From the NCBI GenBank assembly GCA_017410325.1, contig JAFQRA010000027.1, positions 39,032 to 103,031 of the forward strand: a DNA stretch of 64,000 nucleotides. The letters are read 5' to 3'. Under the pieces are notes generated by a model that had not been told where the DNA came from, searched no databases, and was given only the letters and a program-made list of their open reading frames with translations. Position 1 is the stretch's first letter; each line of letters starts with the position of its first letter. Both the position numbers and the translations under genes were made by a program. This document shows positions 6,359 through 39,987 of this stretch, piece by piece. This DNA is from Clostridia bacterium. GTDB lineage: Bacteria; Bacillota; Clostridia; Oscillospirales; Acutalibacteraceae.

Positions 6359-6369
6359 AGACGAAAAAA

Positions 6370-6430: not shown

Positions 6431-6988
6431 TCAGTTGTCGAGAATATCAATATACACCGTGCAGGTGTTTCTGCCGCAGTACTCGCCTTTTTCGTTGTAT
6501 GCGCTAACAACGCAGATACAGGTGTAATCGCCTTTTTTAAGGCTGAGCTTATCCGTAAGCTTATCGTTGAGAATACACTCACCCGGCTTAAGTCTGGGCG
6601 ATTCGTAAATCGGGTCGGACTGATTTTTCGGCAGATAGAACTTGAACTCCAAATCATACTCCGAAACCTTGGGATTTTCAAGCATTATACTGCCGCGGCA
6701 ATACAGGTTATCAAAAACGATATCCGTATTCAGTCGGTAGCGGATTTCGCCCTCGGGGATTTCGGTAATCTGATTTTTTTCGTAAATTACGCCCTGCTTT
6801 ACCGCACCGCGCGGAATTGTAAAGCCGGCAAGCATATGAAAGAAACCGAGAGAATTAAGCGAAAAAACAGCAATAGCAAGCACAAGGCTGCTGACAGCAA
6901 GCATAATAGCCGCCTGCATTACCTTGGGCTCTTTAAGCATTTGTGCAAAGCTTTTTTTATTGAATTTTTCAGCTTTGTTTTTCTGCAT
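6431..6988 (-). CDS. Membrane-anchored exoplasmic protein, last gene of the surface locus
   Basis: 185 residues from the ATG at 6988, preceded by AGAGGAAACAGAGG. An upstream in-frame ATG at 7078 would place 90 bases inside the preceding gene and is less likely. A basic cytoplasmic N-terminus (about 1-25), one transmembrane segment (about 28-50), and an extracytoplasmic beta-rich domain with four Cys near the C-terminus (YCRGS, ECILND, CICVV, CGRNTC). It overlaps the preceding gene by 20 bases and resembles that protein in topology and domain style (an RLKPGE / GLEPGR turn). No known family. Perhaps an anchor or minor subunit of the fibre. Confidence 0.7.
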   Translation of the reverse strand: MQKNKAEKFNKKSFAQMLKEPKVMQAAIMLAVSSLVLAIAVFSLNSLGFFHMLAGFTIPRGAVKQGVIYEKNQITEIPEGEIRYRLNTDIVFDNLYCRGSIMLENPKVSEYDLEFKFYLPKNQSDPIYESPRLKPGECILNDKLTDKLSLKKGDYTCICVVSAYNEKGEYCGRNTCTVYIDILDN

Positions 6989-7868
6989 CCTCTGTTTCCT
7001 CTTCCAAACCGACCTGAACTGTAAGGTCGGAATACTGAACGCCGATAAGCTCATAGCTTTCGGGGTCGTAAGCGGCAATAACGAGCTTCATATCGTGCCT
7101 GCCGTATTTAAGGTCGCTGATAAAAATATCGGAAAGTGCTCTGCCCGGTTCAAGACCGAGTGAACGGTAAATTACCGTATCGGAAGAATTGACAATGCTT
7201 GCGATAAGCACACAGTTATTGTCAAAGACATTTACGAGATTGAGGTTAGCGCTTGAATACTTTTCGGGGAAAACAAGCTCGGTTGCCGCATAATAGCGGA
7301 AATCGTCCACATCTCCCTTGCGCTTCATATTATCCGCAAAGCTGTACTGGGTAACGAGGTCATCGGTTACGATATAGGTTGAGGTGTCGGGAATTGTACG
7401 GCCTCTGTACTCGATAATTGCTTCGTCCGGCACACCAAAGCGTGACGAAGTAACCCACGCAATAACGCACACGGCGGCAACAACCACACTGACAGCCAGA
7501 ACAATAGCCGCAACCTTATTGACACCGAAATCAAAAATCTTTTTCGCAATTATTTTACCGTAATTTTTCTTCGGTCTCTTAACCTTGACAGGCTTTTTCT
7601 TGGGAGCCGGCTTGGCTTTTTCTGTTTTAGGCTTTGCAGGTAAAGCAGGCTTATTCTCCTGCTTTACTTCGCTTTTGATTTCCTGCTTTACCTCAGGCTT
7701 CGCTTCGGGCTTAGGCTCAGGCTTAGCTTCAGGAACGGGTTCGGGCTTTGGTTCAGGCTTTTTGACGGGAGCGGCAGCCTTTACGGGAGCGTTTTTGCCC
7801 TTATATTGTGCCGCAGCCTGTCGAGCGGCTGCGGCACTTTTTTTCTTTTTCTGTCTTCTGTTTGCCAT
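6969..7868 (-). CDS. Membrane-anchored exoplasmic protein with Lys/Pro/Glu-rich cytoplasmic tail
   Basis: 299 residues. Residues 1-30 are basic and Ala-rich. About 30-100 is a low-complexity P-E-x-K-P-E / V-K-Q-E tract. A Lys-rich stretch leads into one transmembrane segment (about 118-140). The C-terminal 155 residues are a predicted extracytoplasmic domain with a SLGLEPGRALSD turn. There is no SipW-type cleavage motif, so it should stay anchored with the charged tail inside. It sits in the 3' block of the locus, before a paralogue-like anchored protein. The tail could contact the cytoplasmic coiled-coil proteins of the locus (inference). Confidence 0.72.
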   Translation of the reverse strand: MANRRQKKKKSAAAARQAAAQYKGKNAPVKAAAPVKKPEPKPEPVPEAKPEPKPEAKPEVKQEIKSEVKQENKPALPAKPKTEKAKPAPKKKPVKVKRPKKNYGKIIAKKIFDFGVNKVAAIVLAVSVVVAAVCVIAWVTSSRFGVPDEAIIEYRGRTIPDTSTYIVTDDLVTQYSFADNMKRKGDVDDFRYYAATELVFPEKYSSANLNLVNVFDNNCVLIASIVNSSDTVIYRSLGLEPGRALSDIFISDLKYGRHDMKLVIAAYDPESYELIGVQYSDLTVQVGLEEETEDAEKQS

Positions 7869-7894
7869 TTTAAGTTAATTCTCCTGTTTTACGG

Positions 7895-8509
7895 TTATCT
7901 CCACGGGAGAGCGTCAATACCCCAGAACTGCTGATATCTGTTGAACTGTACGGCATCGACAGTTACATCAATGCGCAGTGTCACACCGCTCGGAATAGCC
8001 GAGGTATCGAAATTAGCGAAATCAAAACCGCTGAAAATCTCAACGCCTTCATCACTTATCGGGAAAGCACCTTTATAATAAACGAAACCGTCGGTAAATC
8101 TGTTATCAAAGAGCTTGTCGTTTTCGGCAACGATAAAGGGAAGGTTGTATTCACCCTGAAGACGTTTACCGTCCGATGTTACCCACTCCTGCGAAATTCT
8201 GACTCTTGTAAAAGCAACACCGTTACCTGCCTGCTTTACTCTGAAGCAGACGTTGGCAAGATTGCCTATATCTTCCTTGGCAAATGTGAGCACCTCGCTT
8301 TTGGGCACCCATGTTTCACCGCCATTGGTTGAAACTTCAATGCTATAAACAAAATCCTGCAAACTTGTAAGACGGAGAGGATTGAGCGGAGTACCGCTTG
8401 TAAGCCAGGCAGTTGTACCGCAGTAAACCGCAATCAAGGCGCACAGCACCAGAGCGACAACCGCCAACGGATTGAGCTTATATTTTTTTGTGGATTTGGT
8501 TTTGCTCAT
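7895..8509 (-). CDS. TasA-like secreted protein with SipW-type signal
   Basis: 204 residues. A Lys-rich N-terminus, a hydrophobic segment (about 15-32), then GTTAWL, a variant of the [ST]-x-A-W-[FYL] motif that follows the signal helix in SipW-dependent proteins. The mature part is beta-rich, as expected of TasA/camelysin-type fibre proteins. It lies downstream of the secreted protein at 8534-9355 and a SipW peptidase gene. The C-terminus reads IDVTVDAVQ...R, reminiscent of the last residues of the 5731-residue protein (IDITVQAV...R). Confidence 0.75.
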   Translation of the reverse strand: MSKTKSTKKYKLNPLAVVALVLCALIAVYCGTTAWLTSGTPLNPLRLTSLQDFVYSIEVSTNGGETWVPKSEVLTFAKEDIGNLANVCFRVKQAGNGVAFTRVRISQEWVTSDGKRLQGEYNLPFIVAENDKLFDNRFTDGFVYYKGAFPISDEGVEIFSGFDFANFDTSAIPSGVTLRIDVTVDAVQFNRYQQFWGIDALPWR

Positions 8510-8533
8510 TATAATGCGCCCTTTCGGTTAAAA

Positions 8534-9355
8534 TTATTCTGCTGCGAGCACGGTTTTATCATACTGCTCTGCGGATATTTTGACGTCAACATCGAAAACA
8601 AGCTCACGCACGGCACTGTTCTCGATTGCCTGCGACTGGTCAACGAATGCATCATATTCGACCCAGAAGCAGACACAATACGTCTTTTCGTTACCGGGTT
8701 CAAGCTTATCTGTAGTTTCCTGGATATCATTTAAGAAGCTCAGCTTCTGCTCGGGAGTAAAGCTTTCAAAGCCCGTCTCCAAAGCAATTTTTTCTTCGAT
8801 TCTGTCTGCCAGCTTTGAATCGTAAAAAAGGTCATCGTTATTCTCGTAGGGCTTGATAAGGCAATTATCGTCTGCATCAACCCATACGCCGGGTACAAGC
8901 TCGGTATCCATTGTTCCGATATCACTGGCTGTATCGATTTCATAAATAAAATAACGAAGGCCCTTGTCAATCTCGGCTGCTGTCATAACGTCATCCTGCG
9001 TATTGGAGTAGCTGATATTAACAGAAACTGCCGCATCAAGGCCGCCGACAGGATTGTTGTTTTTAGCTGAAAAGACGTAATACTTGGCGGCGTGCTCAAA
9101 CATATTTGCACGCTCGTCAGCATCGTCAAATTTGGTTGCCGCATCAAATTTCAGTTCAAGCACCGTTTCGTTTTCGCCCATTCTGTCACCGGTAAAAGAA
9201 ACGTTGAGTTCTTCCATTTTATAGATTTCGGAATCCTCGCCCGAATCCGAAAACCATGCGGTTGTAGGCTCGGAAGAGGAGTAAACGCCTATGCAGAAAA
9301 CAAGCATTGCACAAAGCACGAAGCTGAAAACACTGCGCTTATTAAAACTTTTCAT
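8534..9355 (-). CDS. TasA-like secreted protein with SipW-type signal
   Basis: 273 residues. Signal helix about 9-27, then the TTAWFSD motif (about 31-37), typical of substrates of SipW-type peptidases such as Bacillus TasA. The mature chain is strongly acidic, with a helical insertion (about 165-215) and a C-terminal strand pair containing CVCFWVEYDAF. The start codon overlaps the stop of the SipW peptidase gene upstream by one base (TAATG), so enzyme and likely substrate are translationally coupled. Confidence 0.8.
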   Translation of the reverse strand: MKSFNKRSVFSFVLCAMLVFCIGVYSSSEPTTAWFSDSGEDSEIYKMEELNVSFTGDRMGENETVLELKFDAATKFDDADERANMFEHAAKYYVFSAKNNNPVGGLDAAVSVNISYSNTQDDVMTAAEIDKGLRYFIYEIDTASDIGTMDTELVPGVWVDADDNCLIKPYENNDDLFYDSKLADRIEEKIALETGFESFTPEQKLSFLNDIQETTDKLEPGNEKTYCVCFWVEYDAFVDQSQAIENSAVRELVFDVDVKISAEQYDKTVLAAE

Positions 9356-9834
9356 TAAGACCTTTCTCCTTTCTGCTTGAATTTATAAACAACAAAACGA
9401 ACAAGCATTATTGCAATTAAAACAGCCGCCAGCACCGTAATAACAGCGGTAGAATTGAAATTCAGCGAAATAAAACCTAAAGCCGGCACGCTGAAAACCA
9501 CCTTTCCGATAATATCGTCAAGCGCTGTCGGCAACGGGTCGGGCTGAGGATTGTTGTCACCCATTGTGTAAACGAGATTATTTTCATAATCGATATAATC
9601 GATACGGTGTGTAAACATACCGCCCGAGGGAAGCCTTGCGGTAATTATGTCACCCTCGGCATACTCCCCTGCCTTACGTACAAAGACCATATCGCCCTCG
9701 TGAAGCTCATCCTCCATACTCGGTGATGCTACGGCAAAGGTTTTGGTATCGGTTATTTTAAGACCGACGGTAAACGCAAAAACAAGAACTATTATAATTG
9801 CAACAATATTATAAAGTACGTTAAATATTTTCAT
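9355..9834 (-). CDS. Signal peptidase I, SipW (Ser-His) type
   Basis: Membrane endopeptidase that removes signal peptides from exported proteins. 159 residues. N-terminal transmembrane helix (about 8-28), extracytoplasmic catalytic domain, second helix (about 128-150), short basic C-terminus. Catalytic Ser39 lies in SPSMED, His76 in MFTHRI and Asp93 in TMGDNN. A His in place of the bacterial Lys marks the ER/archaeal-like SipW branch. It is flanked by two TasA-like genes. One of five such peptidases in this locus. Confidence 0.9.
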   Translation of the reverse strand: MKIFNVLYNIVAIIIVLVFAFTVGLKITDTKTFAVASPSMEDELHEGDMVFVRKAGEYAEGDIITARLPSGGMFTHRIDYIDYENNLVYTMGDNNPQPDPLPTALDDIIGKVVFSVPALGFISLNFNSTAVITVLAAVLIAIMLVRFVVYKFKQKGERS

Positions 9835-9854
9835 AAATTCAAACCAATCTCAAC

Positions 9855-10625
9855 TTATGACTGAGCCTGTGTTGATGACGGTTCTTCCGTCTGCTGAGTA
9901 CTGAAAGTAATTTCGCCTATATTTTCCCATGTGGCATAAGCTGCCTGCTTTGCCTGGAAAGCGATTTTTACGGTGAAACTGTTTTTATCCTTAAAAACCG
10001 AAGTGGGTATATCCGAATTTTCGCCGCTGTAGTACATAGCCGTAAACATCGGTATGGGGTCAACAGCTTCAAGACCGCCGACAATAATATCGCTGTTTGT
10101 TTCGGGATTTACATAGTTGAAATAGCCCGTTTCGGCATCATACTGCCAGTAAACTTTACCGTTGGTGTCGGTTGCAAGCTGAGCTACAAAGGGTCTGCTG
10201 TCGGTTGACTGGCCGACTACGCTGTAGCCGTCTGTCATATTACCGGCATCATCAATATAGGTATAAAAGACCTTCATTCTAAGCTGGGCGTCAACATATT
10301 TCTGTGTTTTTTCCTCGCCTTCGTGAAGATCAGCCTCCAATTTAATGGGCACAAGGTACAGCTTTGTGTTCTGTTCAAGGTTTTCGGGGATATTTTCAAG
10401 CTTTGTGAGAAGATTCACTTCGGGCTGTATTGTTCCCATCGTTTCACTGTCGATAAAACCGCCGACAAGAGTATAGCCTATATTACCTGAAAGGAAATTA
10501 TGAACAACACCTCTGCCCGAGCCGCCTGCGTAGGTTATAAACCACGCATAGGTGCCGCCGACACCGAATGCGCCGACAACGAAAACCAACGAAAGTATAA
10601 GACAGATTATCTTTGTTTTCATCAT
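9855..10625 (-). CDS. TasA-like secreted protein with SipW-type signal
   Basis: 256 residues. A signal helix (about 5-24) ends in GGTYAWFITY, the SipW-substrate motif. The mature part is a beta-rich domain of about 200 residues with an Ile-Gly-rich start, followed by a Ser/Thr/Gln/Glu-rich C-terminal tail without sorting signal. The start overlaps the stop of the preceding SipW peptidase by 4 bases (ATGA), and the next gene is again a SipW peptidase 20 bases on. Probably a fibre subunit or accessory (inference). Confidence 0.8.
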   Translation of the reverse strand: MMKTKIICLILSLVFVVGAFGVGGTYAWFITYAGGSGRGVVHNFLSGNIGYTLVGGFIDSETMGTIQPEVNLLTKLENIPENLEQNTKLYLVPIKLEADLHEGEEKTQKYVDAQLRMKVFYTYIDDAGNMTDGYSVVGQSTDSRPFVAQLATDTNGKVYWQYDAETGYFNYVNPETNSDIIVGGLEAVDPIPMFTAMYYSGENSDIPTSVFKDKNSFTVKIAFQAKQAAYATWENIGEITFSTQQTEEPSSTQAQS

Positions 10626-11125
10626 TTCACCGCTTTCTTTCTTGATTTGCAGCCTTCAATTTCTACGGCAAGCCACACGATATATATAAGTGCAATTATT
10701 ATTTTGCCGACGGCAGAGTTCATAGCCTGGACAGCATAGCCCCAATACGGAACGTAAAAGCTGACCCTTCCCCTGCACTGTTCAAAGGGAGTCGGTAACG
10801 GGTCGGGCCCGTTATTCGCATCGCCTTTCGTGTATAAAAGTTCGTTTTTATAATCTATGTACATTACGCGGTGGGTAAAGGACTTGTTTTGCGCATCGTT
10901 TGAGAAAAGCAAAACATCCACACCGGGAACGATATTTTCCAATTCAACAGCACGGGTATAAACCATACTTCCTTGCGGAATATTCGGCTCCATACTGCCC
11001 GTTTTGACATAGTGAGCTTCAAAGCCGAACACCTCAGGCAGCCACACAGCCGCACAAAGCAAAGCCATAACCGCAGCAAAAACAGCAAACGTTTTACTGC
11101 TTTTTCTTTTTTTCGTCATCTTCAT
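10622..11125 (-). CDS. Signal peptidase I, SipW (Ser-His) type
   Basis: 167 residues. Basic N-terminus, helix (about 12-35), catalytic Ser44 in KTGSMEPNIP, His85 in SFTHRV, Asp102 in TKGDANN, second helix (about 136-155), basic tail. The first 32 bases overlap the end of the previous peptidase gene. An ATG two codons in (11119) is an equally possible start. Two adjacent SipW genes in tandem suggest separate substrates. Confidence 0.88.
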   Translation of the reverse strand: MKMTKKRKSSKTFAVFAAVMALLCAAVWLPEVFGFEAHYVKTGSMEPNIPQGSMVYTRAVELENIVPGVDVLLFSNDAQNKSFTHRVMYIDYKNELLYTKGDANNGPDPLPTPFEQCRGRVSFYVPYWGYAVQAMNSAVGKIIIALIYIVWLAVEIEGCKSRKKAVK

Positions 11126-11666
11126 TAGTCTTTTCGTTCATTTTTTTGCTTATATTTACAAACTCAAGAGTGATAATAAAGCACATAGGAAGCACGACTA
11201 CCAGAAGGAAAATCGCAGGATTTTCTCTGACCTTCATCAGCTTTTCCATAAGGTTGCTTTTGGCGACAACCTTGCCGATTATCTTTTCACTCTGAGCAGG
11301 ATATTCGTCGGGAATTTCATTTGCATCACCCTGCGTAACGAAGGAATATGTACCGTCGCCGTCATCGGTGATTTCCATAATTCTGTGGGTGACTATCATA
11401 TTGTTGAGATTCGGGTGGCTTGAATAGAACGTAATTACGTCCTTAACTTCAAGCTCGCTCGGGTCGGTTTCCTTGATAATGATAACCGAGCCGATGGGAT
11501 ATTCGGGCGTCATACTGCCCGTTTGCACGGCCATAAAGCCGTAGCCTAAAACTGTTGTTGCCTTGCCGCTTTTAGCGTTTACGCCGACAAGGACAAGTAT
11601 GCCTGCGGCCAAAAAGATGACCGCCACAAGGATAGTATTTATAATTTTGCCGATAATCTTTTTCAT
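11094..11666 (-). CDS. Signal peptidase I, SipW (Ser-His) type
   Basis: 190 residues. N-terminal helix (about 10-32), catalytic Ser51 in VQTGSMTPEY, His94 in IVTHRI, Asp114 in TQGDANE, second helix (about 151-171), then a short charged tail that ends in a run of Lys. It lies 7 bases downstream of the TasA-like gene at 11674-12327, which is therefore the likely cognate substrate. Closest in layout to the classical SipW of Bacillus. Confidence 0.9.
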   Translation of the reverse strand: MKKIIGKIINTILVAVIFLAAGILVLVGVNAKSGKATTVLGYGFMAVQTGSMTPEYPIGSVIIIKETDPSELEVKDVITFYSSHPNLNNMIVTHRIMEITDDGDGTYSFVTQGDANEIPDEYPAQSEKIIGKVVAKSNLMEKLMKVRENPAIFLLVVVLPMCFIITLEFVNISKKMNEKTNEDDEKKKKQ

Positions 11667-11673
11667 TTATTAC

Positions 11674-12327
11674 TTATCCTTCCGCCTGGGTGTCGTCCCC
11701 TTCCGTACCGTCCGGAAGGCTGACAGCCAATACAAATGACAGCTTTTTGCCGGCATAGGTATTGTCGGCAGATTCAAGCATTTTAATCTGATATTCATAT
11801 ACGTACTGCGGTGAGTTTTTATCCTTACGGGACGGGTCAACCGTCTCGTTGTCAACGATTTTTCCGTCAGACGGTAAAGGCACAAAATCGCCGTCATTGA
11901 CTTTTATATACAGAACGTCGGAAAGCATATTTTCCTCTGTAACAACCTCAAACCTGGTTGTTTCTTCGACGTTTTCCTCGCCTTCCTCCGTTACAGTTTC
12001 CGGCTCACGAAGAGAGGCTGAAATATCGGTAAGCGACATTGTCAGCACATCATCCTCTCTTGCCGTAAACTTGACACGGAAAGTGTACGCCTGACCCGGC
12101 TGAATATCAAGATGGCCGCCGTTGTAGCCTACCCAGGTAGAACCGTCGTAATACTCGATTGAGTTTAGCTGTGAAGGGACATCAGGAGCCTTGAGTGTTG
12201 CCGTGATTCTGCTTACCAAAGCGTGATCGCCAACGGCATACCACGCAAAGGTAGCACAGACAAGCACAAGCACAAGCACGCCGCCTGCGATTGCAAGCTG
12301 AAAAGCATTTGTTTTCTGACTTTTCAT
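11674..12327 (-). CDS. TasA-like secreted protein with SipW-type signal
   Basis: 217 residues. Signal helix about 9-26 ending ATFAWYAVG, the Trp-aromatic motif of SipW substrates. The mature domain is predicted beta-sandwich with an acidic insertion (TVTEEGEENVEETT) near residue 115. It begins 23 bases after the stop of the 5731-residue adhesin and precedes a SipW gene, so it may be the subunit that anchors or caps the giant protein (inference from order only). AGGAA lies immediately before the start. Confidence 0.78.
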   Translation of the reverse strand: MKSQKTNAFQLAIAGGVLVLVLVCATFAWYAVGDHALVSRITATLKAPDVPSQLNSIEYYDGSTWVGYNGGHLDIQPGQAYTFRVKFTAREDDVLTMSLTDISASLREPETVTEEGEENVEETTRFEVVTEENMLSDVLYIKVNDGDFVPLPSDGKIVDNETVDPSRKDKNSPQYVYEYQIKMLESADNTYAGKKLSFVLAVSLPDGTEGDDTQAEG

Positions 12328-12350
12328 TTCCTGATGTCCCCACTTTCAAA

Positions 12351-15300
12351 TCATCTGAATAAACCGAAAAGGTTTCTGACACCCCAGGTGTCAACGCTTA
12401 CCGCCTGAACGGTAATATCAATTGTATCGAATACACCGATACTTGTCGGAACGGCAATGTATGCAATTCCGTTTTCGTTGGTATAACCGGTTACAGTTGT
12501 TGTCTGCAAATCGTTAAATACCACTGTGACCTCACCCTGAACATAACCGTCCGGCAACTGGGTTTCAACCCTGAAGAGCTGAGCGTAATCGCCGTCAATT
12601 TCGTAGGTAAAGACCATATTGTTACAAAGCACACCCTGCTGAGCGGAATCGAAGGCTGTTGCAGCTGTTGCACTGCCGCCGTTGCCGGTGATTGCCGAAA
12701 GGATTGAATGAGCACCGCCGGTAAGACCGTTTATCTTGTAGTTAACCGTATTTACCTTCTTGCCCACGGCAACATCGACATATCTGGTCATTGAGCCGAG
12801 CGTGTAAGTAAGCTCACCGTCATAGACCTGACCGAGTGCCATGTTGCTTGTTTCGGTTGTCCATCTGTCGGTTTCCGCCTTGAGGAACTGGTTGCTCTGG
12901 CTTGCGGCCAGACCGCTTACGCCGAGCTGAGCACCTGTAATTAAAGTAGGTGTAGCAGTTGTAAAGGTTGTTGATGTACCTGCACCGATACCGGTTGCAA
13001 AGACAACTGCGGCACTTGCAAGCTTGACTGCGTTTTCAAACGCATCGCCATACTCGCCCGTCATTTCGGTTCTTACCTCTTCGCCGGAAGCATCGGTTTC
13101 CAAAACAAAGAAGCTGAAAGTACCGTTTGCAAAATTCTTATGCACGGGATAACCTGCAAAGCCGTCAATCCACGCCATATCGTTGCCGAATGCACCGTCC
13201 GGGGCACCTGCGGTAAGGAAGTGTGTGGTAGAAGCCGTTTCACCGCCGTCAACGGTAGAAAGCTGTTTATCGTAATAGCTGTTTTCGACTTCTACGTCTG
13301 CACCGTTGCCTGCAAAATTGCCGGTTACGGCACCCTTGACGTTACCCGCAACAACCGTGTTGATAACCTCTGCTGTACCTTTGCCGAGGACACCGCCCGT
13401 TGCAGTACCTTCGGTGTTACTGCCCTTTACTAAAGCGGTTGACAGACAGTTGGTAATTACGGTACCTTCCATAGCCGTACCGACAAGACCGCCCACAGAA
13501 GCTGCCTGTGAATCAATCTTACCTGATACTACACAGCCGTCAATCGTTGTTGCGCCATCGGTTTCACCGAAGAGAGCACCGACATTTGAGCCGGTAGGAG
13601 CAACAAGCTCACCGATAACTACACAGTTTTTAACGCCGGCATTGTTAAGTGCCCTTGCTGCAAGCAGAGCAGAAGCATCCTTCGTATCCGTAGTAACCTT
13701 AATGCCGGTAAGACCGAGGTTGCTGATTGAGCCGCCCTCAAGGCTGCCGATAAAGGCATTTGCGCCTGTTTCGGGAATCTCAACATTGGAGATTACGAAG
13801 CCCTTACCATCGAGATTTGCCTTGAAGATATTGATGTATGAGTTGTTCCAATCGACATTTTTCATATCGATATCGTCGGTCATCTCAAAGAAGCTGGAAG
13901 CATTCTTACCATAGTAGGAAAGAGCAATTACGTGCTCGGGAGCTGAAATCTGATACTTGCTCTTCTCGCTGCCGTTACCGCTCGCAAAGTTCGGGTTAGC
14001 ACCGTCATCGTCTACTGTGAAATAGAGATTGATGGTATCCGAAAGTTTTGCATAATCATCGACATTGTAGAAATCTTCAATTGCAAGAGTTGCGGTCGCA
14101 ATTGCCGATTTATTTTCAAGCTCCTTGATCTCGTCCCAAGAGTTTGCGATAAGAACTCTGTGTCCGTCTATAATAGCCGAAGAAGCTACTGTACCGGATA
14201 TTACCCAAGACATCATACCGTGGGTAAGCTGTGTTGTGCTGCTTCCGGCTGCAATGTTGTCGATATAGTTATCGTTTGCGACAACTGCCGTTGTTGCACT
14301 GAGCTGTGAGTAAGAGCGGAGCGCTCTGTACATTCTGACGGTTACTTCGTCCTCACTGTTTGCCGTAGCAAGGATTACGGAAAGCTGCGGGTACTCGTCA
14401 TTCTTAGATGTTGTACCGTCCGCCTGTGTTGCACGGGTATAACCTTCCGCCGAACAAAGTGCGTTATGGTTAGACATTGTTATGATATCGCTCGTGCTTT
14501 CGGCATAGGTAAAGATATCCTTGAAGCAAGTGCCGCTGAGCTGCTTGTCAAACATAACATCTTTAAGAGAACCGCTGTTCTGTGCAACAAAGATACCGTT
14601 GAGTGTTGCAGGAGAAGCATCAGCCTTTCTTACGTCAAACAGGCCTGCCGCAAAGCTTGCGGTAATTGAGCCGCTGTTTGCGCCTGCAAAGCTACCGATT
14701 GTAAGACCGTCTGCAACATTCGTAACCTTGAAGTTACAGCGTGTGTAACAAGCGTCTATCGTACCGTTATTGGTACCGACAAAGCCCGAAACAACACCAA
14801 CGGGATTATCAAGAATGATATCGCCCATTGTAAAGCTGTTCTTTATTTCACCGCTGTTGGTACCGACAAGAGCACTTGCATTTGTGAGGTTCTTGCCGGA
14901 GATATCGCCGACAGAAGCACTCATATTGATTGTACCGTTGTTGGTAAGAGCAAGACCTGCAACATTGCTCTGAGCTACAGCATCTTCACCGCTGTTTGTA
15001 TAATCAACGGCGGAAATACAGCCTTCAACAAGACCTCTCTCGCCTACCGTACCGGCTATGCCTGCGACATTGCTGCCGGAGGCTTTACCGAACACGTTGA
15101 CGCCTACTGCCGAACCGTCAAGCGTGCCGACAAGGCTTTCGTTACTCTCAAACTCAACGTTTTCAAACGTGATGTTTGAAATTGAGCTGTTTGCATCAAG
15201 AGTTGCTGCAAGAGTAGTTGTAAGATTACGGATTGCATATCCGTTACCGTCAAGCGAATAGCCGTAATCAAGAGTGCTGAAACTTCTGTTGTACAGCTTA

Positions 15301-29546: not shown

Positions 29547-29666
29547 TATTGAGTGACCTCCGAAGTAATTTAGATATTCATCTCAAAACGGTTTCTTACG
29601 GTGTCTTTCTGCCGTTGCACCGCCCGTATTCAAGATGATTGGATGTGACTAAATGCTGTACTGAGC

Positions 29667-31754: not shown

Positions 31755-31846
31755 AACTAATCAATCGCTCCTTAAAATAGACTTTCGTTTTACGCGGTTT
31801 GGCTTCCGCCCCGAAACCGAGGCGGAAAGCCGAAAGGTTAATATAA

Positions 31847-33436: not shown

Positions 33437-33463
33437 TTTATAGCCACCTCTATGCTGTATTTT

Positions 33464-34324
33464 TTAAACTTGGTCGTTATTGTCATTGCCCTGCTGCTCT
33501 TTTTCTTCTTCGGCAGCCTTTTGCTGGGCAAGAAATTCGGCAATGATTGCCTTGATTTTGGCTTCTTCCGCCTTTTCTTTTTCCGCCTGCTCAAGCTCTT
33601 TTTGCTTTTGCAGATATTCTTCGATAATCTGTTGCTTTCTTGCTTCCTCTTCCTGCTGCTGTCTGAGGTATTCCCTTATGATAGCATCCCTGTCGCTCTG
33701 AGCCGCAGGAGGGTAAGACCGCGGCTGAACGCTTTGATAAACAGGTTGAGGAGATTTTTTTTCGAGCGCAAGTGAGCGAAGATAACCGAAGAGCTGCCAG
33801 ATTACAATAAGGGCAGCGGGCAGAACAATCAACAGCAGTACACCCTGTGAGGTTTCGGCAAAATCGAAGAACTTGCCGAGATTACTGACACGCTTACCGG
33901 TGTATGTGCCGAGAATTCGCGAGGACGGAACCTCTTTTCTGTCGGGCTCGTCAGCATTGTCACCTTTAGTGACGTAGCTTATATAGCCGTTGGTGTTTTT
34001 TACCTTAATAACTCTGTGTGTATTTATGTACATAGAGCCGGTGTTATCGTAGGCAATGAAGGAAATTATATCATCTTCCTTGTACTGATGCGTTTTGTTA
34101 TAACGCTTTATCATAATCAAATCGCCGGGGAAGAAGATATCCTCCATTGAATCACTCTGAACGGAGAGGAACGAATAACCGCCGAGGTTTGCAACACCCG
34201 TAGAGGATTTTGTTGAGATGATAACCATTGCACAGACAACAATTGAGAAAATGAGAATGATTGAAGAGAGAACATTCATTGCGATATGAAATATTCTGTT
34301 GTCCAGTATGTTCTTTTTCTTCAT
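33464..34324 (-). CDS. Signal peptidase I, SipW type, with cytoplasmic coiled-coil tail
   Basis: 286 residues. Helix 1 (about 13-37), catalytic Ser59 in VQSDSMED, His103 in INTHRV, Asp122 in TKGDNAD, helix 2 (about 160-183). A tail of about 100 residues follows that should lie in the cytoplasm. The tail has three copies of a motif like I-I-x-E-[YF]-L-x-x-Q in a Gln/Glu/Lys-rich coiled coil. Classical SipW enzymes lack such tails. A sister peptidase at 35432-36469 has the same kind of tail, which suggests a shared docking partner. Confidence 0.88.
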   Translation of the reverse strand: MKKKNILDNRIFHIAMNVLSSIILIFSIVVCAMVIISTKSSTGVANLGGYSFLSVQSDSMEDIFFPGDLIMIKRYNKTHQYKEDDIISFIAYDNTGSMYINTHRVIKVKNTNGYISYVTKGDNADEPDRKEVPSSRILGTYTGKRVSNLGKFFDFAETSQGVLLLIVLPAALIVIWQLFGYLRSLALEKKSPQPVYQSVQPRSYPPAAQSDRDAIIREYLRQQQEEEARKQQIIEEYLQKQKELEQAEKEKAEEAKIKAIIAEFLAQQKAAEEEKEQQGNDNNDQV

Positions 34325-34382
34325 ATCGGTTTACCCTTTTGTGTTGTGTAGGTTAATTTATGTATTCAAGCTGCGTTAAAAA

Positions 34383-35249
34383 TTATGCAGCGGGCGTTTC
34401 GTCTTCACTTACTGAGCCGAAGGAGATAGAAGCTGCAAGGTGCTTAGCGGAAAGCTTTTCACCCGTACAGTCTGTATCGTTGCCCTCAATCCAGATGCGT
34501 ACAACGATTGTTTCGGAGCCTGTGTTGCCGGGAATTTCAGCAAGCTCAAGAGAGCCTTCATACTTATTCTGGTCTGCGGCAGACTGACTAAGCTCGGTTA
34601 TTGTCTGTGTTGAAAGAGAAACAACACCGTTTGTTTCCGATGAATCGATAATGCTGTTGTTGTTTGCGTCAATAACAGTTTCGGCAGGAATATCGTTTGA
34701 AGTAACAGCCTGTGTGCTGTCGCCTGCCATTGCAAAAATAGTTGTCTGTCCCTTATATGTTACAGAGATACGTGCTGCGCTGACAGCCTCGTGACCGGCA
34801 TCGTTACCGGTAAGAGCAACATGCATTGTGCCAGTAACAGCCTCGGAGGTTGTTGAACGGATTTTAATTGTCATTTCGTTGTAGTCTTTGCCCTTTTCGG
34901 GAGTAAGGGATGCAAAGTAGCCGCCCTGAAGGCCTACCTTTGTGAAAGCTGCACCGTCAGCACTGGAAACGGGTGCGTACTTGCCGTCTGCGGCGATAAG
35001 CTCACCTTCAGCGAAACAGTCTCTGTCGAGGAATGCGCCCCAATCAGCAGACTCACCGCCTTCTACAACGTAAGCTTTACCTGCGGAGCCCTGAATTTCA
35101 ATGCCGCCGCCTGCTTCAATTACATCGAAGCCAAGGTCGAACAGCTCTGCGAAGCCACCTACGAGGAACCAGGCGTATGTACCCGATACCATTGTTGTTG
35201 CGGCAACGATAAGAACGATGATGGAAAGTCCTATTTTGCGTTTTGCCAT
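34383..35249 (-). CDS. TasA-like secreted protein with EF-hand-like loop and WxEGxDxxC motif
   Basis: 288 residues. Signal helix (about 7-22) ending SGTYAWFLVGG, the SipW-substrate motif. The mature protein is acidic and beta-rich. Residues 194-205 read D-A-N-N-N-S-I-I-D-S-S-E, spaced like a calcium-binding loop. The C-terminal strand has IWIEGNDTDC (Trp253, Cys261), a motif shared with the proteins at 37093 and 38028. Flanked on both sides by SipW peptidases with coiled-coil tails. A good candidate for a fibre subunit. Confidence 0.82.
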   Translation of the reverse strand: MAKRKIGLSIIVLIVAATTMVSGTYAWFLVGGFAELFDLGFDVIEAGGGIEIQGSAGKAYVVEGGESADWGAFLDRDCFAEGELIAADGKYAPVSSADGAAFTKVGLQGGYFASLTPEKGKDYNEMTIKIRSTTSEAVTGTMHVALTGNDAGHEAVSAARISVTYKGQTTIFAMAGDSTQAVTSNDIPAETVIDANNNSIIDSSETNGVVSLSTQTITELSQSAADQNKYEGSLELAEIPGNTGSETIVVRIWIEGNDTDCTGEKLSAKHLAASISFGSVSEDETPAA

Positions 35250-35431
35250 TTTGTTTACCCTCTTTACTTAAAATTTTTTATTTTAAGAGCACCGTGCTCT
35301 TTGAATATGAATTGTTCGTGCGGATGATATACGCCCCTACGGGGAAGATAAATAATGTATATAATAATATAAATATTTAAGGGAGATTATTCGGAAGATA
35401 CGGGACTTCGAGGACGCCGTCCCCTACGGTT

Positions 35432-36469
35432 TTACTCCTCTGTTGTTTCTTCCGCATTTTTTTCGGCTTCCTGCTGTGCGAGGTATTCAGCAATTGCCTG
35501 CTTTTTGAGTTCTTCCTCTTTAGCTGCCTGTTCAGCGGCGGCCTTTTCAGCCTCCTGCTGTTTGATGTACTCTTCGACAGCCTTGCGCTTGATTTCTTCT
35601 TCCTCGGCTGCCTTGGCAGCAGCGGCCTTTTCGGCTTCCTGCTTGGCGATGTATTCTTCAACCGCCTTTTTCTTTATATCCTCTTCGGATTCTTCAGACT
35701 TTTTGGTTTCTTCAACGGGCTTCGGCTTTTCTTCCGCCGCCTTTACGGCTTCGGCAGGAGCGGGATTAGCGGCTGCCTGTGCGGCGAGCATTTCAGCCAT
35801 AACGCGCTGTTTGATTTCTTCCTCTGCATCCTTAACGGCGGCAACAGCCTTTTCCTTCTTTGCATCCATAAGAGCGGAGATGAACTTAAACAGCTCAAAG
35901 AAGAAGAAGATTGCGGTCGGGATAACTACGCAGAGCATAAAGCCGAGCTGTGACTGAAGGAAGGAAAGGATTGAGCCGAGGTGAGGTATTGCAGTACCCG
36001 TCCACTTTGCAACGATACGCTGATTGGAAAGATAGTCGATGCTCAGATCCTGATTCATATCGATGTCGGGTGTATTATCGCCTCGTGTGACATAATAAGC
36101 TTCGCCACCGTGTATCCAAACACCGTCAACCACTTCGTTCTGATTCTGTGTATATGTATCAGCAACAATTCTATGGGTTTCGAGGTAGGGTTGGTCTTCA
36201 TAGTAACGCCAGAATGTTACTACATCGCCGACCTTATAGGGCTCATCCTGTTCCGGGTCGGTGAGTTCAACAATAATAAGCGAGCCCTCGGGGAAACCCT
36301 CTTCGCTCATCATTGAGTCGGTGAGGACGTTGAACACAGCCTTGCCGAAGAGATTCGGCAGACCCGAATCATGCTTCGTTGAGGATAGAACCATAACCGT
36401 CATTAAAATCGAGAAGACAAGAATAACGGTCACAAGGACGTTGCCCACGATTTTACCAATCTTTTTCAT
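35432..36469 (-). CDS. Signal peptidase I, SipW type, with three 28-residue coiled-coil repeats
   Basis: 345 residues from the ATG at 36469; the longer frame to 36589 runs into an intergenic repeat and has no basis. Helix 1 (about 8-28), catalytic Ser52 in LTDSMMSEEG, His99 in LETHRI, Asp131 in TRGDNTP, helix 2 (about 175-200). The cytoplasmic tail (about 200-345) ends in three tandem units of about 28 residues, each with K-A-[VI]-x-E-Y-[IL]-x-x-Q-E-A-E-K. This IxEY[IL]xxQ core also occurs in the tail of the peptidase at 33464. The tail is almost as long as the enzyme. Confidence 0.88.
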   Translation of the reverse strand: MKKIGKIVGNVLVTVILVFSILMTVMVLSSTKHDSGLPNLFGKAVFNVLTDSMMSEEGFPEGSLIIVELTDPEQDEPYKVGDVVTFWRYYEDQPYLETHRIVADTYTQNQNEVVDGVWIHGGEAYYVTRGDNTPDIDMNQDLSIDYLSNQRIVAKWTGTAIPHLGSILSFLQSQLGFMLCVVIPTAIFFFFELFKFISALMDAKKEKAVAAVKDAEEEIKQRVMAEMLAAQAAANPAPAEAVKAAEEKPKPVEETKKSEESEEDIKKKAVEEYIAKQEAEKAAAAKAAEEEEIKRKAVEEYIKQQEAEKAAAEQAAKEEELKKQAIAEYLAQQEAEKNAEETTEE

Positions 36470-36532
36470 TAAAAATACCTCGCATTTTCTTGATTTATGG
36501 GAACTTGATATTTTTACCGGATTTATATTTTG

Positions 36533-36647
36533 CAATCCTCCGTCACGGCTAACGCCGTGCCACCTCCTTTTCAAAGGAGGTTTTGACAAAGCAATTTACA
36601 TCGCTGTAATTGAGGGCTTTCCTCCTTTTGAAAGGAGGGGAGGATTG
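36533..36647. repeat. Dispersed inverted-repeat element CAATCCTCC...GGAGGATTG
   Basis: 115 bases bounded by CAATCCTC and GAGGATTG. It contains GTCACGGCTAACGCCGTG and CTCCTTTTCAAAGGAG hairpins plus a second CCTCCTTTTGAAAGGAGG. A close relative lies at 38935-39068 and a diverged one at 59959-60120. The terminal inverted repeats and lack of genes suggest a small non-autonomous mobile or structured element. Confidence 0.8.
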
Positions 36648-36733
36648 TTGAGGGATGAAAACACCTCATTCATATATTTACTTTTAAATATATGAATCAA
36701 CTGTTTTCGTAACCTTTGATATTAAAGGAATAC

Positions 36734-36810
36734 TGTAGGGAAGGCGTTTCGCCTCCCGTAATTTAACGCCATATCCCTTATACTTCGGGAGGGGTGACCC
36801 CTCCCCTACA
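36734..36810. repeat. GTAGGG...CCCTAC palindromic repeat
   Basis: Begins TGTAGGGAAGGCG and ends GACCCCTCCCCTACA, with internal GGCG-TTTC-GCCT and GGGAGGGG/CCCCTCCC pairings. Same family as the elements at 4114 and 63803. Confidence 0.7.
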
Positions 36811-36863
36811 CGTTAAACGGGGAGTGCGTTAAACACGAATTGCAAACTTAACTTTCACATACC

Positions 36864-36924
36864 CCTTGCGGTGCGGCGATGCACCGCAAGGAATAGGCTT
36901 GTTAGCTGTTAGCTGACAGCTAAC
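36864..36924. repeat. Two hairpins in the gap downstream of the tasA-like gene
   Basis: CCTTGCGGTGC-ggcgat-GCACCGCAAGG (36864-36891, 11-bp stem) and GTTAGCTGT-tagctg-ACAGCTAAC (36901-36924, 9-bp stem). No T-tract follows on either strand. They sit in the about 620-base gap between the TasA-like gene and the tailed SipW gene. Apart from repeats I see no gene in this gap. Confidence 0.6.
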
Positions 36925-37023
36925 AAAGAAAGTTGTGTTTTAGCTAAATCACAAATTTTTGTTTTGCAAGAAGCGGATTGTTTGCCGCCCCCTGCCTTGG
37001 GGGAGAAATTAATGAGGGGGAAT

Positions 37024-37050
37024 ACCGGGTCGGGTCACACCCGACCCGGT
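37024..37050 (-). terminator. Very strong hairpin 3' of the tasA-like gene (attenuator or stabiliser)
   Basis: A perfect 12-bp GC-rich stem (ACCGGGTCGGGT and complement) with a 3-base loop, 43 bases after the stop of the TasA-like gene at 37093. On the minus strand it is followed by ATTCCCCC, not a T-tract. It may therefore be a partial terminator or 3'-end stabiliser that raises the level of the upstream subunit mRNA relative to downstream genes. Confidence 0.55.
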
Positions 37051-37092
37051 AATAATTCAGTTAATCTGATTTAAGTATAGTTAAAACCTAAA

Positions 37093-37893
37093 TTAGACCT
37101 TTTCGAAGTCAAGAACAACGCCGCAAGCCTTCTCAGGAACTGCACCGGAGCAAGCGATATCGTTACCCTCTGCCCAAACATAAAGGGTAACTGTCTTAGC
37201 CTGGTTAGCTGTGAGTGCAATTGTCAGAGGGTCCGCTGTACAGCTTACAGCGTCTCCGGCAAGACCTGTGTACGGTGTTTCTGTACCATCGGCAATGAAA
37301 TCGCTTGCATCCATGATTGCATTACCATTTTGGTCAACACCCTTGGTAGCCGAAACAACCGGTACGTAAGAGCTGGTAGATGTCTTGTTGTAAACTTTGT
37401 AGTTACCCTCTGTATCAAAAAGAGCTGAGTAAATGAAGCTGTATGTTGAGCCTGTCATGTTGGGAGTGATCTTAACATTGCAGTCAACGTCGGACTTAAC
37501 ATAGATATTGATCATGATGTAGTAGCTGGAGCCGTCAGAAACAGTTGTGGGATTGAAAACGAACTTGCCTTCTGTTGCACTGCCAACTGTTGCATCCTGC
37601 TCGATGGAGCCTGCGATGAAGCTCATACCACCAGGGTTAAAAGATACGGGTGTAAAACTATTGGGCATAAAGTTGCCGCCAACACTTGCGAATTCTGTAT
37701 AGTCAAGAGATGTACTGTAATCTGTTCCATCAGCAGAAATCTGAATGTTACCGGCTGTGTTAGCAACTGTAGCAGAGATGTTGGAAACCTTAGCTGTTGT
37801 ACCGGTTGCGAACCATGCGTAGGTGGATGATGTGAGAACAATTGCGGATACCATGAGCATCGCAAGTGCTGCCACGAGTGAACGTTTTTTCAT
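37093..37893 (-). CDS. TasA-like secreted protein, probable major fibre subunit
   Basis: 266 residues from the ATG at 37893, chosen because GGAGGA lies 7 bases before it; an ATG five codons earlier overlaps this site. Signal helix (about 6-22) ending SSTYAWFATG. The mature protein is rich in Ser, Thr, Ala and Val and beta-stranded. Residues 187-198 read D-Q-N-G-N-A-I-M-D-A-S-D, an EF-hand-like loop, and the C-terminus has YVWAEGNDIAC (Trp240, Cys248). It has the best ribosome site of the locus and a strong 3' hairpin, so it may be the most abundant product (inference). Confidence 0.85.
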   Translation of the reverse strand: MKKRSLVAALAMLMVSAIVLTSSTYAWFATGTTAKVSNISATVANTAGNIQISADGTDYSTSLDYTEFASVGGNFMPNSFTPVSFNPGGMSFIAGSIEQDATVGSATEGKFVFNPTTVSDGSSYYIMINIYVKSDVDCNVKITPNMTGSTYSFIYSALFDTEGNYKVYNKTSTSSYVPVVSATKGVDQNGNAIMDASDFIADGTETPYTGLAGDAVSCTADPLTIALTANQAKTVTLYVWAEGNDIACSGAVPEKACGVVLDFEKV

Positions 37894-38027
37894 AGTTTTT
37901 TCCTCCATTTAAGAGTAGTGTTTTATAGGGATTAGAAACACTTTTTATCCAAAATGTCTTTGACTGTTACGGGTAATAAAATCAAACCCTGTGACTTGAA
38001 AAACGGCTTTAATAAGTCTCCCCCAAC

Positions 38028-38909
38028 TTAATCGGCCTTTTCCTTGTCAAGAACCTCAAGGGTCATCTTGAGTTTGACTTCACCTCCCATAATGTCGTTG
38101 ACACATTCAGGATCTTCACCCTCAAGCCAGACGACGACAGTATATCTGTCACTTTGGTCTACCTTGAAGTTCTTGCGGGTGTACTGCATAACCATCGTGT
38201 CGGATATGAAGTTTTTGTCCGCTTCGAATGTTTCCTTTTTGCCGTCGGAAACCCTGGGCTTTGCGTATGTAGTGGGTTTACCGTTTATGAAAACCATAAC
38301 ACGAATTGCTTCGTCAGCGCCCTTGTAGGCTGTGACTACTTCAAGACTTGCCAGGTAATCAACCGTTGCGTCCTCGCCGCCCGGAACGGCTTCGCCGCCG
38401 TTGCGCACCGAGAAGGTGTAGGCGAGGTAGTTTGTACCGTTGTGGTCGCCGTAGACCTTATCAATATCTGCGTAGCTGTCGTAAACGGGGTCGTCGCCAA
38501 GCTCGCCGTTTTTGTTGAGCAGCCAGTGCTTCGTGATATTGTCCATATTTTCAACCGCTGAGCCGTAAAGAGTCAGCGTGGGGTTTTCAAACTTCTCGTT
38601 ATCTACAAGCTGGATACCGTAGAGGTTACCCGTCATACTAACGGTGAAGCGGCCTGCGCTGTTGATAACCGAGGTACAGGCATAGCCGATACCGAGAAGA
38701 AGTATGAGCACGCCGATGATGATAGCCAGAATTCTGATTAACCAGTTTCTTTTATATACGGTTTCGGCGGTTGTGTTTACATCGTACTTATCCATATCGT
38801 CCGGTGTAAGAGCCGGGATATACGGGCCGCTTGCACCCTCTACAAAGCCGTTGCTAACGGGCTGCTCGGGCTGAGCCGTTTCTTTTTTCTTTCTTGCCAA
38901 TGCTTTCAT
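38028..38909 (-). CDS. Membrane-anchored TasA-related protein
   Basis: 293 residues. A cytoplasmic N-terminus of about 55 residues, one transmembrane segment (about 57-80) without the TYAWF cleavage motif, and an extracytoplasmic domain of about 210 residues. The C-terminal strand VVWLEGEDPEC matches the WxEGxDxxC motif of the secreted subunits at 37093 and 34383. It therefore looks like a version of the subunit that stays in the membrane, perhaps the fibre base (inference). Second gene of the locus, upstream of the subunit. Confidence 0.75.
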   Translation of the reverse strand: MKALARKKKETAQPEQPVSNGFVEGASGPYIPALTPDDMDKYDVNTTAETVYKRNWLIRILAIIIGVLILLLGIGYACTSVINSAGRFTVSMTGNLYGIQLVDNEKFENPTLTLYGSAVENMDNITKHWLLNKNGELGDDPVYDSYADIDKVYGDHNGTNYLAYTFSVRNGGEAVPGGEDATVDYLASLEVVTAYKGADEAIRVMVFINGKPTTYAKPRVSDGKKETFEADKNFISDTMVMQYTRKNFKVDQSDRYTVVVWLEGEDPECVNDIMGGEVKLKMTLEVLDKEKAD

Positions 38910-38934
38910 CTCCCAATCGAGAAATTATGTATGT

Positions 38935-39068
38935 CAATCCTCAGTCTCGCTACGCTCGACAGCTCCTTTTCAAAGGAGCCATTGGCAAAGCAGTTTATAT
39001 CGCTGTACCTTGGGGCTTTACCTCCTTTTGAAAGGAGGTGGCACGGCGTAAGCCGTGACGGAGGATTG
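38935..39068. repeat. Dispersed inverted-repeat element CAATCCTC...GAGGATTG
   Basis: 134 bases, second copy of the element at 36533-36647. Ends are CAATCCTCAG and GGAGGATTG. The right arm (CCTCCTTTTGAAAGGAGGTGGCACGGCGTAAGCCGTGACGGAGGATTG-like) is the inverse complement of the left part of the other copy. It separates the EAL-domain gene from the next gene without an obvious terminator. Confidence 0.8.
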
Positions 39069-39083
39069 CTGAGTATCGAATGG

Positions 39084-39881
39084 TTATTTAATTTTCTTTT
39101 CATCCCAGAGGTCTGTGCAGTAGTTTTTGCCCTTGAGCCTGCGCACGCCCATTTTTGTGAGGAGGGCTGCAAGCTCGGGTGTATCAACACCGTCGGCAAT
39201 TGTTTTGACGCCGAGCTTCTTTGCAAAATCCACAAGGCCCTGGACGACTATTCTCGGTCTGTCCTCATCCTCATAAAGCTCGGGATTGATGGGCTCTATC
39301 ATCTTGCGGTTGATTCCTATGTAATCTACCTCGTACTGTGAAAGGTTGGACATTGAGGTGTATTCAACGCCGAGGTCGTCAATCGAGAAGAAGGAGCCGT
39401 GCTCGCGCATTTCGGCGATATTCTTTTTAACCTGCTCGCTTTCGGTAGCGTAGATGTTTTCCGAAATGTTGAAGCAGAACTTGTCAGCCTCGACTTCCTT
39501 CTTTTCGAGGATTTTCATAATCTGTGTGCAGAAGTAGGGCTTTGCAAGATACTTGACCGAAAGGTCGAGAATAAAGCTGTTGATGCTTGCGTCTCTTGCA
39601 TCGGCTCTTTTGAGAACGTCGCAGCACTCTTCGACAGCCCAGCGGTTAATCTCGCAGATGCGGTTGCTCTTTTCTGCAACGGGGGTGTAATACTCCGGAA
39701 GCATAACGCCCATCTTGCTGTCGTTGATTACTACCGTTGCGGCATAATCGAGAGCCATATTGAGGTTGTTGTCAAACACAGGCTCAAACATAAGCACCAT
39801 GGGACGTATGCGTCTGCCGCCCGTGGACTTTTTAGCCTGAGTTTCGCCCTGCTGAGCGGAAAGAGTTTTGTTTTCTTCCAT
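39084..39881 (-). CDS. Degenerate EAL-domain protein, first gene of the surface locus
   Basis: 265 residues, soluble, no other domain. The fold of c-di-GMP phosphodiesterases is recognisable: EPV at 33-35 for EAL, LDLSV (about 105-109) for VNLS, SEN (140-142), DDLG (168-171) for DDFG, and IADGVDT (228-234) for AEGVET. Key residues are changed: the metal-binding Asn is Asp106, the LKID Lys is Gly189 and the AEGVET Glu is Asp230. So hydrolysis of c-di-GMP is doubtful, and a ligand-binding or protein-interaction role is more likely. As the promoter-proximal gene it may link fibre production to second-messenger signalling. Confidence 0.82.
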   Translation of the reverse strand: MEENKTLSAQQGETQAKKSTGGRRIRPMVLMFEPVFDNNLNMALDYAATVVINDSKMGVMLPEYYTPVAEKSNRICEINRWAVEECCDVLKRADARDASINSFILDLSVKYLAKPYFCTQIMKILEKKEVEADKFCFNISENIYATESEQVKKNIAEMREHGSFFSIDDLGVEYTSMSNLSQYEVDYIGINRKMIEPINPELYEDEDRPRIVVQGLVDFAKKLGVKTIADGVDTPELAALLTKMGVRRLKGKNYCTDLWDEKKIK

Positions 39882-39958
39882 TTGTAGCCCGACCCCTTAA
39901 TAAAGAATTTATCTATATATAATTATTATATATAAAGAAATAATAATACACACTAAAG

Positions 39959-39987
39959 ATTGTATCACTGCAGAGTGTATTTGTCAA
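39959..39987 (-). promoter_or_regulatory. Housekeeping promoter of the 33-kb surface locus
   Basis: Minus strand: TTGACA (39982-39987), exactly 17 bases, TACAAT (39959-39964). It lies about 70 bases upstream of the EAL-domain gene; the leader is very AT-rich (39905-39950). No other gene lies in 39882-40119. Confidence 0.8.

Follow-up and report, generated by a model that had tools for sequence, protein, structure and literature searches.

A McrB-like AAA+/DUF2357 gene pair in a conserved unit with SipW-type signal peptidases and pilin-like proteins in a putative surface-fibre locus of Clostridia

The closest described relatives of the locus reported here are the CoCoPALM systems named in PMC11090510 (eLife 2024). 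In the passages of that paper that deal with them, a McrB-like GTPase with an FtsB-like transmembrane (TM) and coiled-coil part is encoded beside signal peptidases and the McrC homologue is usually a coiled-coil protein, and the details are deferred. Our locus is a run of 18 minus-strand genes at 6431-39881 of a 64-kb window, that is, the whole stretch of 64,000 nucleotides analysed (positions 39,032 to 103,031 of contig JAFQRA010000027.1, assembly GCA_017410325.1, from a Clostridia bacterium). Like the CoCoPALM systems of those passages, it has a McrB-family nucleoside triphosphatase (NTPase), a DUF2357-type McrC homologue and signal-peptidase neighbours, the last in 79 of 80 related loci. 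The membrane-anchored pilin relative (G17), the EAL-domain gene, the SipW tail motif, the several SipW-type peptidases and the giant GLUG-repeat protein of the window do not appear in the CoCoPALM passages. An earlier note on this DNA held that no system with this gene set had been described; its core had already been named, so that this holds only in part. Beyond CoCoPALM, no other description of the AAA/DUF2357 pair beside SipW turned up among the papers that literature searches listed. The window locus fits the CoCoPALM kind in its NTPase, McrC homologue and signal-peptidase neighbours; what it has in addition are the anchor, the tail motif and a gene for an EAL or HD-EAL protein, as well as, specific to this clade, five SipWs and the giant protein.

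Two further systems invite comparison. The Type IV restriction system McrBC of E. coli shares the AAA and DUF2357 domains with our locus, which differs from it in a TM-bearing N-terminus, in the absence of a nuclease domain detectable with Pfam and in its surface-gene context. The tapA-sipW-tasA operon of B. subtilis resembles the locus in having a SipW-type peptidase and secreted fibre-like proteins with an AWF-type signal, which we take TasA to carry. To our knowledge, SipW/TasA-type fibres have been described as assembling without a cytoplasmic motor. The fold of TasA is weakly resembled by the two window proteins that were modelled, G16 and G17. The AAA, DUF2357 and EAL genes of the window have no counterpart mentioned for that operon in the parts of a review that describe it.

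The first eight genes in order of transcription are as follows; the ninth encodes the 5731-aa GLUG-type protein and is listed with the remaining genes below.

39084-39881, minus strand: degenerate EAL-domain protein of 265 aa (Pfam EAL, 7.8e-39)
38028-38909, minus strand: G17, predicted membrane-anchored pilin relative with a cytoplasmic tail, one TM segment (57-75, by hydropathy) and an exoplasmic beta domain (hhalign; model pLDDT, i.e. predicted local distance difference test, 85.5)
37093-37908, minus strand: G16, pilin-like secreted protein with an AWF signal (AWF invariant in 44 aligned rows; model pLDDT 85.7)
35432-36469, minus strand: SipW-type peptidase, long cytoplasmic tail with repeats of an EYLAxQ-type motif (NCBIfam SipW 5e-27, under the model cut-off)
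34383-35249, minus strand: pilin-like secreted protein with an AWF signal (pilin profile 5.2e-24)
33464-34324, minus strand: SipW-type peptidase adjoining the AAA gene, three motif sites in its long tail (NCBIfam SipW 1.1e-35, under the model cut-off)
31847-33436, minus strand: membrane-anchored McrB-like AAA+ protein (PDB McrB 1.7e-8; TM 63-81 by hydropathy)
29667-31754, minus strand: protein with a DUF2357 domain (McrC N-terminal-like), extended by a part rich in Lys, Glu and Ala (Pfam DUF2357, 44.6 bits; cut-off 23.3)

These calls bear out much of the earlier note, which had named an 18-gene run at these positions, five SipW-type peptidases, at least five SipW-type secreted proteins (six are found), several membrane-anchored exoplasmic proteins (three, each with a single TM segment), a membrane McrB-like protein and a degenerate EAL protein. 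Its coiled-coil DUF2357-like protein does carry DUF2357; the coiled coil is read from composition alone.

A conserved genetic unit consists of G17, an AWF pilin-like protein, SipW, the membrane McrB-like AAA+ protein, a DUF2357 protein without a detectable nuclease and, often, the degenerate EAL protein. When 300 genomes of the same family were searched with the AAA, 42 gave a match at <=1e-10, of which 36 had the same type (best match >=48% identity, partial genes included) and six a divergent one (<=35%). SipW (<=1e-15) was present in 36 of the 36 genomes with this AAA type and in 95 of the 264 others (Fisher 5e-15, uncorrected for kinship). The related loci are the best 80 of 568 confirmed relatives, so that counts on them lean to close relatives. 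Their titles name Clostridia, Oscillospiraceae, Ruminococcus, Christensenellaceae and some Bacilli metagenome-assembled genomes, many from the guts of ruminants, deer, horses and rabbits; Ruminococcus albus KH2T6 has a small version of the locus (L144). SipW was found in 79 of these loci, DUF2357 in 76, a pilin-like gene in 67, G17 in 66 and EAL in 37; these are best assignments, used because the profiles cross-match (raw counts were 71 for G17 and 73 for the pilin). The one locus lacking SipW, with 40 bases of contig upstream of the AAA gene, and the four lacking DUF2357 all lie at contig ends. The order G17-SipW-AAA-DUF2357 is kept in 55 of the 80 loci, with a pilin gene between G17 and SipW in 49, and EAL is upstream of G17 in 37 of the 37 loci that have it. 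SipW stands between AAA and DUF2357 in five loci, four from Christensenella or Christensenellaceae and one from Candidatus Ornithoclostridium.

The linkage recurs beyond these 80 loci. Another 22 contigs of the same family contained SipW in 22, DUF2357 in 21 and G17 in 20 cases. At the order level, the AAA was detected in 24 of 245 genomes; nine of the 21 matches outside the family were examined as loci, and six of them (L155-L160) keep the core. A phylum sample of 398 genomes returned only the window's own genome at E 1e-40. Four contigs with divergent McrB-like matches from the family were inspected; SipW is not beside the AAA in G167, G048 and G106, and SipW and DUF2357 are both present in G218. 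Two pairs of genes escaped the crude ORF (open reading frame) caller, AAA with G17 in G087 and AAA with DUF2357 in G232. The earlier note had named conserved synteny of AAA, SipW and a giant GLUG protein as a test of its proposal, and the order of AAA, SipW, DUF2357 and pilin genes is indeed conserved across families, whereas the giant protein is clade-specific. The note would have been contradicted by an AAA/DUF2357 pair mainly beside unrelated genes; among the relatives examined, its constant neighbours are instead SipW and pilin-like genes.

A second feature of the unit is a helix-like motif, approximately KxxAIEEYLAxQ, in one or more copies on the cytoplasmic C-terminal tail of the AAA-adjacent SipW. 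A strict pattern occurred in 53 of 73 upstream SipW tails, six of 52 downstream tails and one of three other SipW tails; elsewhere it was present in one of 550 other ORFs, one of 37 EAL and none of 77 DUF2357 proteins, and 0.05 occurrences were expected in shuffled upstream tails. A motif matrix, with its threshold at the 1% point of shuffled tails, was positive in 60 of the 69 loci with an upstream SipW (in the other 11 of the 80 no upstream SipW lies within 4 kb); 58 of the 60 exceed the highest shuffle and two do not. The matrix was built from the same loci in which it was counted, and the controls were left out of its building. Of 42 loci with a downstream SipW, seven were positive; in five of these the SipW is the one placed between AAA and DUF2357, and the remaining two just clear the threshold. 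None of 41 control tails has the motif, although many are similarly long. These controls represent 40 of the 95 genomes that have SipW and lack this AAA type, genomes near the top of the matches listed, most of them contributing one SipW; one control tail runs into a contig end, and another (L197) was probably cut in the wrong place. In the window the motif is on both AAA-side SipWs and on none of the other three, and in the 22 further contigs a SipW passes the threshold in 20, two of these weakly. The motif, newly found here, tells AAA-linked SipWs from other SipWs. We regard it as a candidate site at which the AAA/DUF2357 unit docks.

An alignment of 13 AAA rows matched three sequences in the PDB, all of them McrB. 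The Walker A (GISGTGKT), Walker B (DEMN) and NNDD segments are invariant in these rows. At residues 370-373 the window AAA has N-N-D-D. The CoCoPALM NTPases carry NxD in place of the NxxD signature, and the four residues can be taken as NxD followed by D or E; in a gapless comparison with E. coli McrB they are readable as NxxD too. The NCBIfam McrB model matches at 8.3e-7 and 28.1 bits, far under its cut-off of 637, and for kinship with FtsB there is only a hint (FtsL_Actino, 0.013). The DUF2357 domain was matched in 20 of 21 aligned rows of the partner protein. Its long charged extension, with the coiled coil again judged by composition, is found in the window and most relatives and is absent in six loci. 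Pfam reported DUF2357 alone and no nuclease domain in the window protein, a search that a degenerate nuclease fold could escape, and a PDB search with the DUF2357 alignment gave no McrC match. A pairing of the basic DUF2357 extension with acidic SipW tails was considered and rejected as a general mechanism, since strong positive charge is limited to roughly one row in three, those close to the clade of the window, the other extensions being neutral or acidic.

SM, THR and GD are invariant across the five aligned SipWs of the window and are presumably the Ser-His catalytic residues of the endoplasmic reticulum/SipW-type peptidases. The three SipWs run against NCBIfam matched both the SipW and the archaeal-type signal peptidase models; none reached the cut-off of the former (190 bits) and all three reached that of the latter (51.85). 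A profile of the five, run on the whole 2.67-Mb assembly at E <=0.01, found no sixth SipW; the five match it by construction, and the absence of others is the informative part. Two ordinary type I signal peptidases (Pfam PF10502) are encoded on another contig. The extra SipWs of the window locus are clade-specific.

The six secreted proteins share an AWF-type signal end, which was identified by eye. G17 and pilin alignments, which took in 58 of 62 G17 and 43 of 49 pilin candidates, matched each other in hhalign at 99.2% (1.4e-19); G17 is newly recognized here, by profile comparison, as a homologue of the AWF pilins that is predicted to stay anchored in the membrane. It has a basic juxtamembrane tail, the conservation of which is weak. 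The pilin profile gave four matches in the whole assembly at E <=0.1, all in the locus (G16, 34383-35249, G17 and, weakly, 11674-12327), and did not reach the remaining AWF proteins of the window. No Pfam cut-off was reached by the six AWF proteins or G17, and a PDB sequence search with the G16 and G17 alignments found no match. In a Foldseek search with the G16 model, 7ueg was the top row and the TasA fibre 8aur ranked seventh.

In the EAL protein, five of the seven usual catalytic residues were replaced in a comparison with structure 2r6o, the positions counted as catalytic being our assumption. The full set was present in none of 38 rows, in which columns of distant rows may be misaligned. 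Because the catalytic set is incomplete, the protein would be at most a binding module, and the second-messenger input proposed in the earlier note is doubtful. Rfam at the gathering score detected no c-di-GMP riboswitch and no other element in the window. As a separate observation, the gene upstream of G17 encodes an HD domain and a weak EAL in L157 (14891-16357), the locus among L155-L160 whose upstream genes were scanned for these domains, and an HD-EAL fusion is present in L097 (2104-3507). Genes combining HD with a weak or degenerate EAL suggest a former c-di-GMP regulator.

We think it reasonably probable that this is a CoCoPALM-type surface-fibre locus in which the McrB-like AAA+/DUF2357 unit docks on the SipW tail and drives fibre building at the membrane; binding, NTP use, cleavage and the fibre itself are what we infer from genes and motifs. 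The pilins would be exported by Sec and cut by the SipW enzymes at the AWF-type signal, and the subunits would join through strand exchange, as in TasA-like fibres. G17, never released, would act as the base subunit and keep the fibre fixed in the membrane. Beneath the membrane the AAA+ proteins would form a ring, with the DUF2357 protein as activator, and the unit would bind the KxxAIEEYLAxQ-like helix that the adjacent SipW carries on its cytoplasmic tail. NTP hydrolysis would then gather or switch the platform of SipW and G17, and in this way bring cleavage and fibre growth together at one site and at one time. The EAL protein would serve as a non-catalytic regulator or adaptor, and in this clade the platform would have gained more SipWs with their own substrates and the giant adhesin. 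It appears, then, that an engine of DNA defence has been taken over for the building of surface fibres. The bolder version, that a McrBC restriction-type motor became the NTP-driven base of a SipW-dependent fibre, gripping a dedicated SipW by its tail helix so that cleavage and growth are powered and switchable, with the unreleased pilin relative as anchor, we put forward tentatively, as possible but rather doubtful. If true, it would be an assembly principle unlike sortase, chaperone-usher and type IV pili systems. With a conserved McrBC-like motor fixed in such loci of many gut Clostridia, and a motif that marks the SipWs linked to it, one can ask directly if an NTPase of the defence type powers the construction of surface fibres.

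Several observations weigh against the fibre-motor reading. The G16 and G17 models match TasA and archaeal bundling pili only weakly, no better than they match unrelated beta-sandwich rows, and the row counts are inflated by kinship. The side branch L152-L154 has membrane AAA genes, with DUF2357 in two of the three, and no SipW match alongside; because of these loci the AAA/DUF2357 engine is not strictly a partner of SipW. The EYLAxQ motif is absent in the diverged loci L155, L156, L160, G232 and G297, where another helix stands instead, e.g. EKLRAELLESM, and the L157 tail scores barely over the threshold. Six loci with a short DUF2357 protein also lack the motif; they belong to one clade and represent a single event.

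Among the alternatives, the one that survives best, though we consider it unlikely, is that the AAA/DUF2357 unit is a quality-control extractor that pulls stuck pilin precursors, G17 or SipW from the membrane and builds nothing. The AAA is membrane-anchored, and the conserved SipW tail motif and the basic G17 tail could be its grips; however, that G17 tail is weakly conserved, and the core gene set contains no protease besides the signal peptidases among the profiles used (other ORFs being unclassified). Somewhat more improbable is a linkage that is real yet regulatory only, in which the unit sets the level or place of SipW as a scaffold and has no part in fibre growth. The degenerate EAL partner would suit such a role, and B. 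subtilis SipW reportedly has a second one, to go by the title of Terra et al. 2012, but the invariance of Walker A, of Walker B and of the NNDD region speaks for hydrolysis. Least probable of the three, by our estimate, is a McrBC-derived defence system, either carried along in an island of surface genes or acting as a guard of the envelope, e.g. by sensing phage binding to the fibre, since, for all that McrB is the closest solved relative of the AAA and that the PADLOC candidate-defence model PDC-M26A matches the window AAA at 1.1e-39, no nuclease domain was found with Pfam, this AAA type was accompanied by SipW in all 36 genomes that have it among those searched, its position within the pilin-SipW order is fixed across families and the SipW tail motif segregates with it. 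In the output of pipelines that look for defence systems, such loci may come up as anti-phage candidates.

Some features of the divergent loci deserve mention. L152 (G764) and L153 (G814) have the gene order AAA-DUF2357-AAA, and large neighbours of the AAA genes in L152 and L154 (G847) contain a transglutaminase-like domain; this branch may represent another kind of surface machine that uses this motor. In L155, L156 and L160 an EKLRAELLESM-like helix recurs on the AAA-side SipW tail, with a related helix on the downstream SipW, and it is perhaps an exchanged docking motif. A link between short DUF2357 proteins and motif loss was dropped, one event in one clade having no statistical weight.

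The remaining genes of the run, in order of transcription, and the signals around it are listed below.

12351-29546, minus strand: GLUG-type repeat surface protein of 5731 aa with a signal peptide (one open frame, 5731 codons)
11674-12327, minus strand: secreted protein with an AWF signal (TFAWYA, read by eye)
11094-11666, minus strand: SipW-type peptidase, no tail motif (NCBIfam sigpep_I_arch 1.5e-26)
10622-11125, minus strand: SipW-type peptidase, no tail motif (Pfam Peptidase_S26, 19.8 bits against a cut-off of 22.9; aligns with the other SipWs)
9855-10625, minus strand: secreted protein with an AWF signal (TYAWFI, read by eye)
9355-9834, minus strand: SipW-type peptidase, no tail motif (Pfam Peptidase_S26, 1.8e-8, 35 bits, passing the cut-off)
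8534-9355, minus strand: secreted protein with an AWF signal (TTAWFS, read by eye)
7895-8509, minus strand: secreted protein with an AWF-type signal (TTAWLT, read by eye)
6969-7868, minus strand: single-TM exoplasmic protein with a Lys/Pro/Glu-rich cytoplasmic tail (TM 119-137 by hydropathy; homologues in G253 and G177)
6431-7021, minus strand: single-TM exoplasmic protein, start uncertain (hydropathy; homologues in G253 and G177)
39959-39987, minus strand: promoter-like site TTGACA-17-TACAAT with TG (consensus match alone, 11 of 12)
6364-6418, minus strand: terminator-like 13-bp stem followed by TTTTTT (by eye)
36470-37092, no strand: 623-bp gap, containing a GC-rich hairpin at 37023-37051 and, at 36544-36564, one copy of a dispersed repeat

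The 5731-residue GLUG protein of the earlier note is confirmed as a single frame with 29 GLUG-like matches, compared with 0.5 in shuffles; the Pfam GLUG matches are weak (25.7 and 19.0 bits against a cut-off of 20.5). Directly behind the DUF2357 gene there is an ORF of >=1500 aa in at least 11 of the 80 related loci, a lower bound set by contig and flank ends, and other proteins are found there elsewhere. The giant protein is clade-specific. Of the assembly machine proposed earlier, the export and assembly gene unit with a cytoplasmic motor is retained, whereas the giant adhesin is not its organizing centre and, as noted above, the second-messenger input is in doubt.

The spacing between genes is below 60 bp at 11 of the 17 junctions, including four overlaps (one depending on the start chosen for gene 1), in line with the many overlapping or nearly abutting genes described before; the widest gaps are 623, 182, 174, 120 and 119 bp. 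The framing signals fared less evenly: the promoter-like site matches 11 of 12 consensus positions, yet such sites are not in excess around 39987-39959 (eight found, 14.2 expected), and the stem and T run at 6418-6364, seen by eye, were not reported by a pattern scan for terminators. A single transcript for the whole run is plausible from this layout, though there may be further signals in the 623-bp gap. The hairpin at 37023-37051, which comes immediately after the pilin gene 37093-37908, is a perfect 13-bp GC-rich one with no T run, and it could stabilize the pilin mRNA. A repeat with the core CACGGCTAACGCCGTGCCACC lies at 36544-36564 and 39037-39057, one copy each in the 623-bp gap and in the 174-bp gap before the EAL gene end, both intergenic gaps of the operon. 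It has eight copies in the genome with up to two mismatches, compared with none for a reversed control, and may be a small mobile or REP-like (repetitive extragenic palindromic) element.

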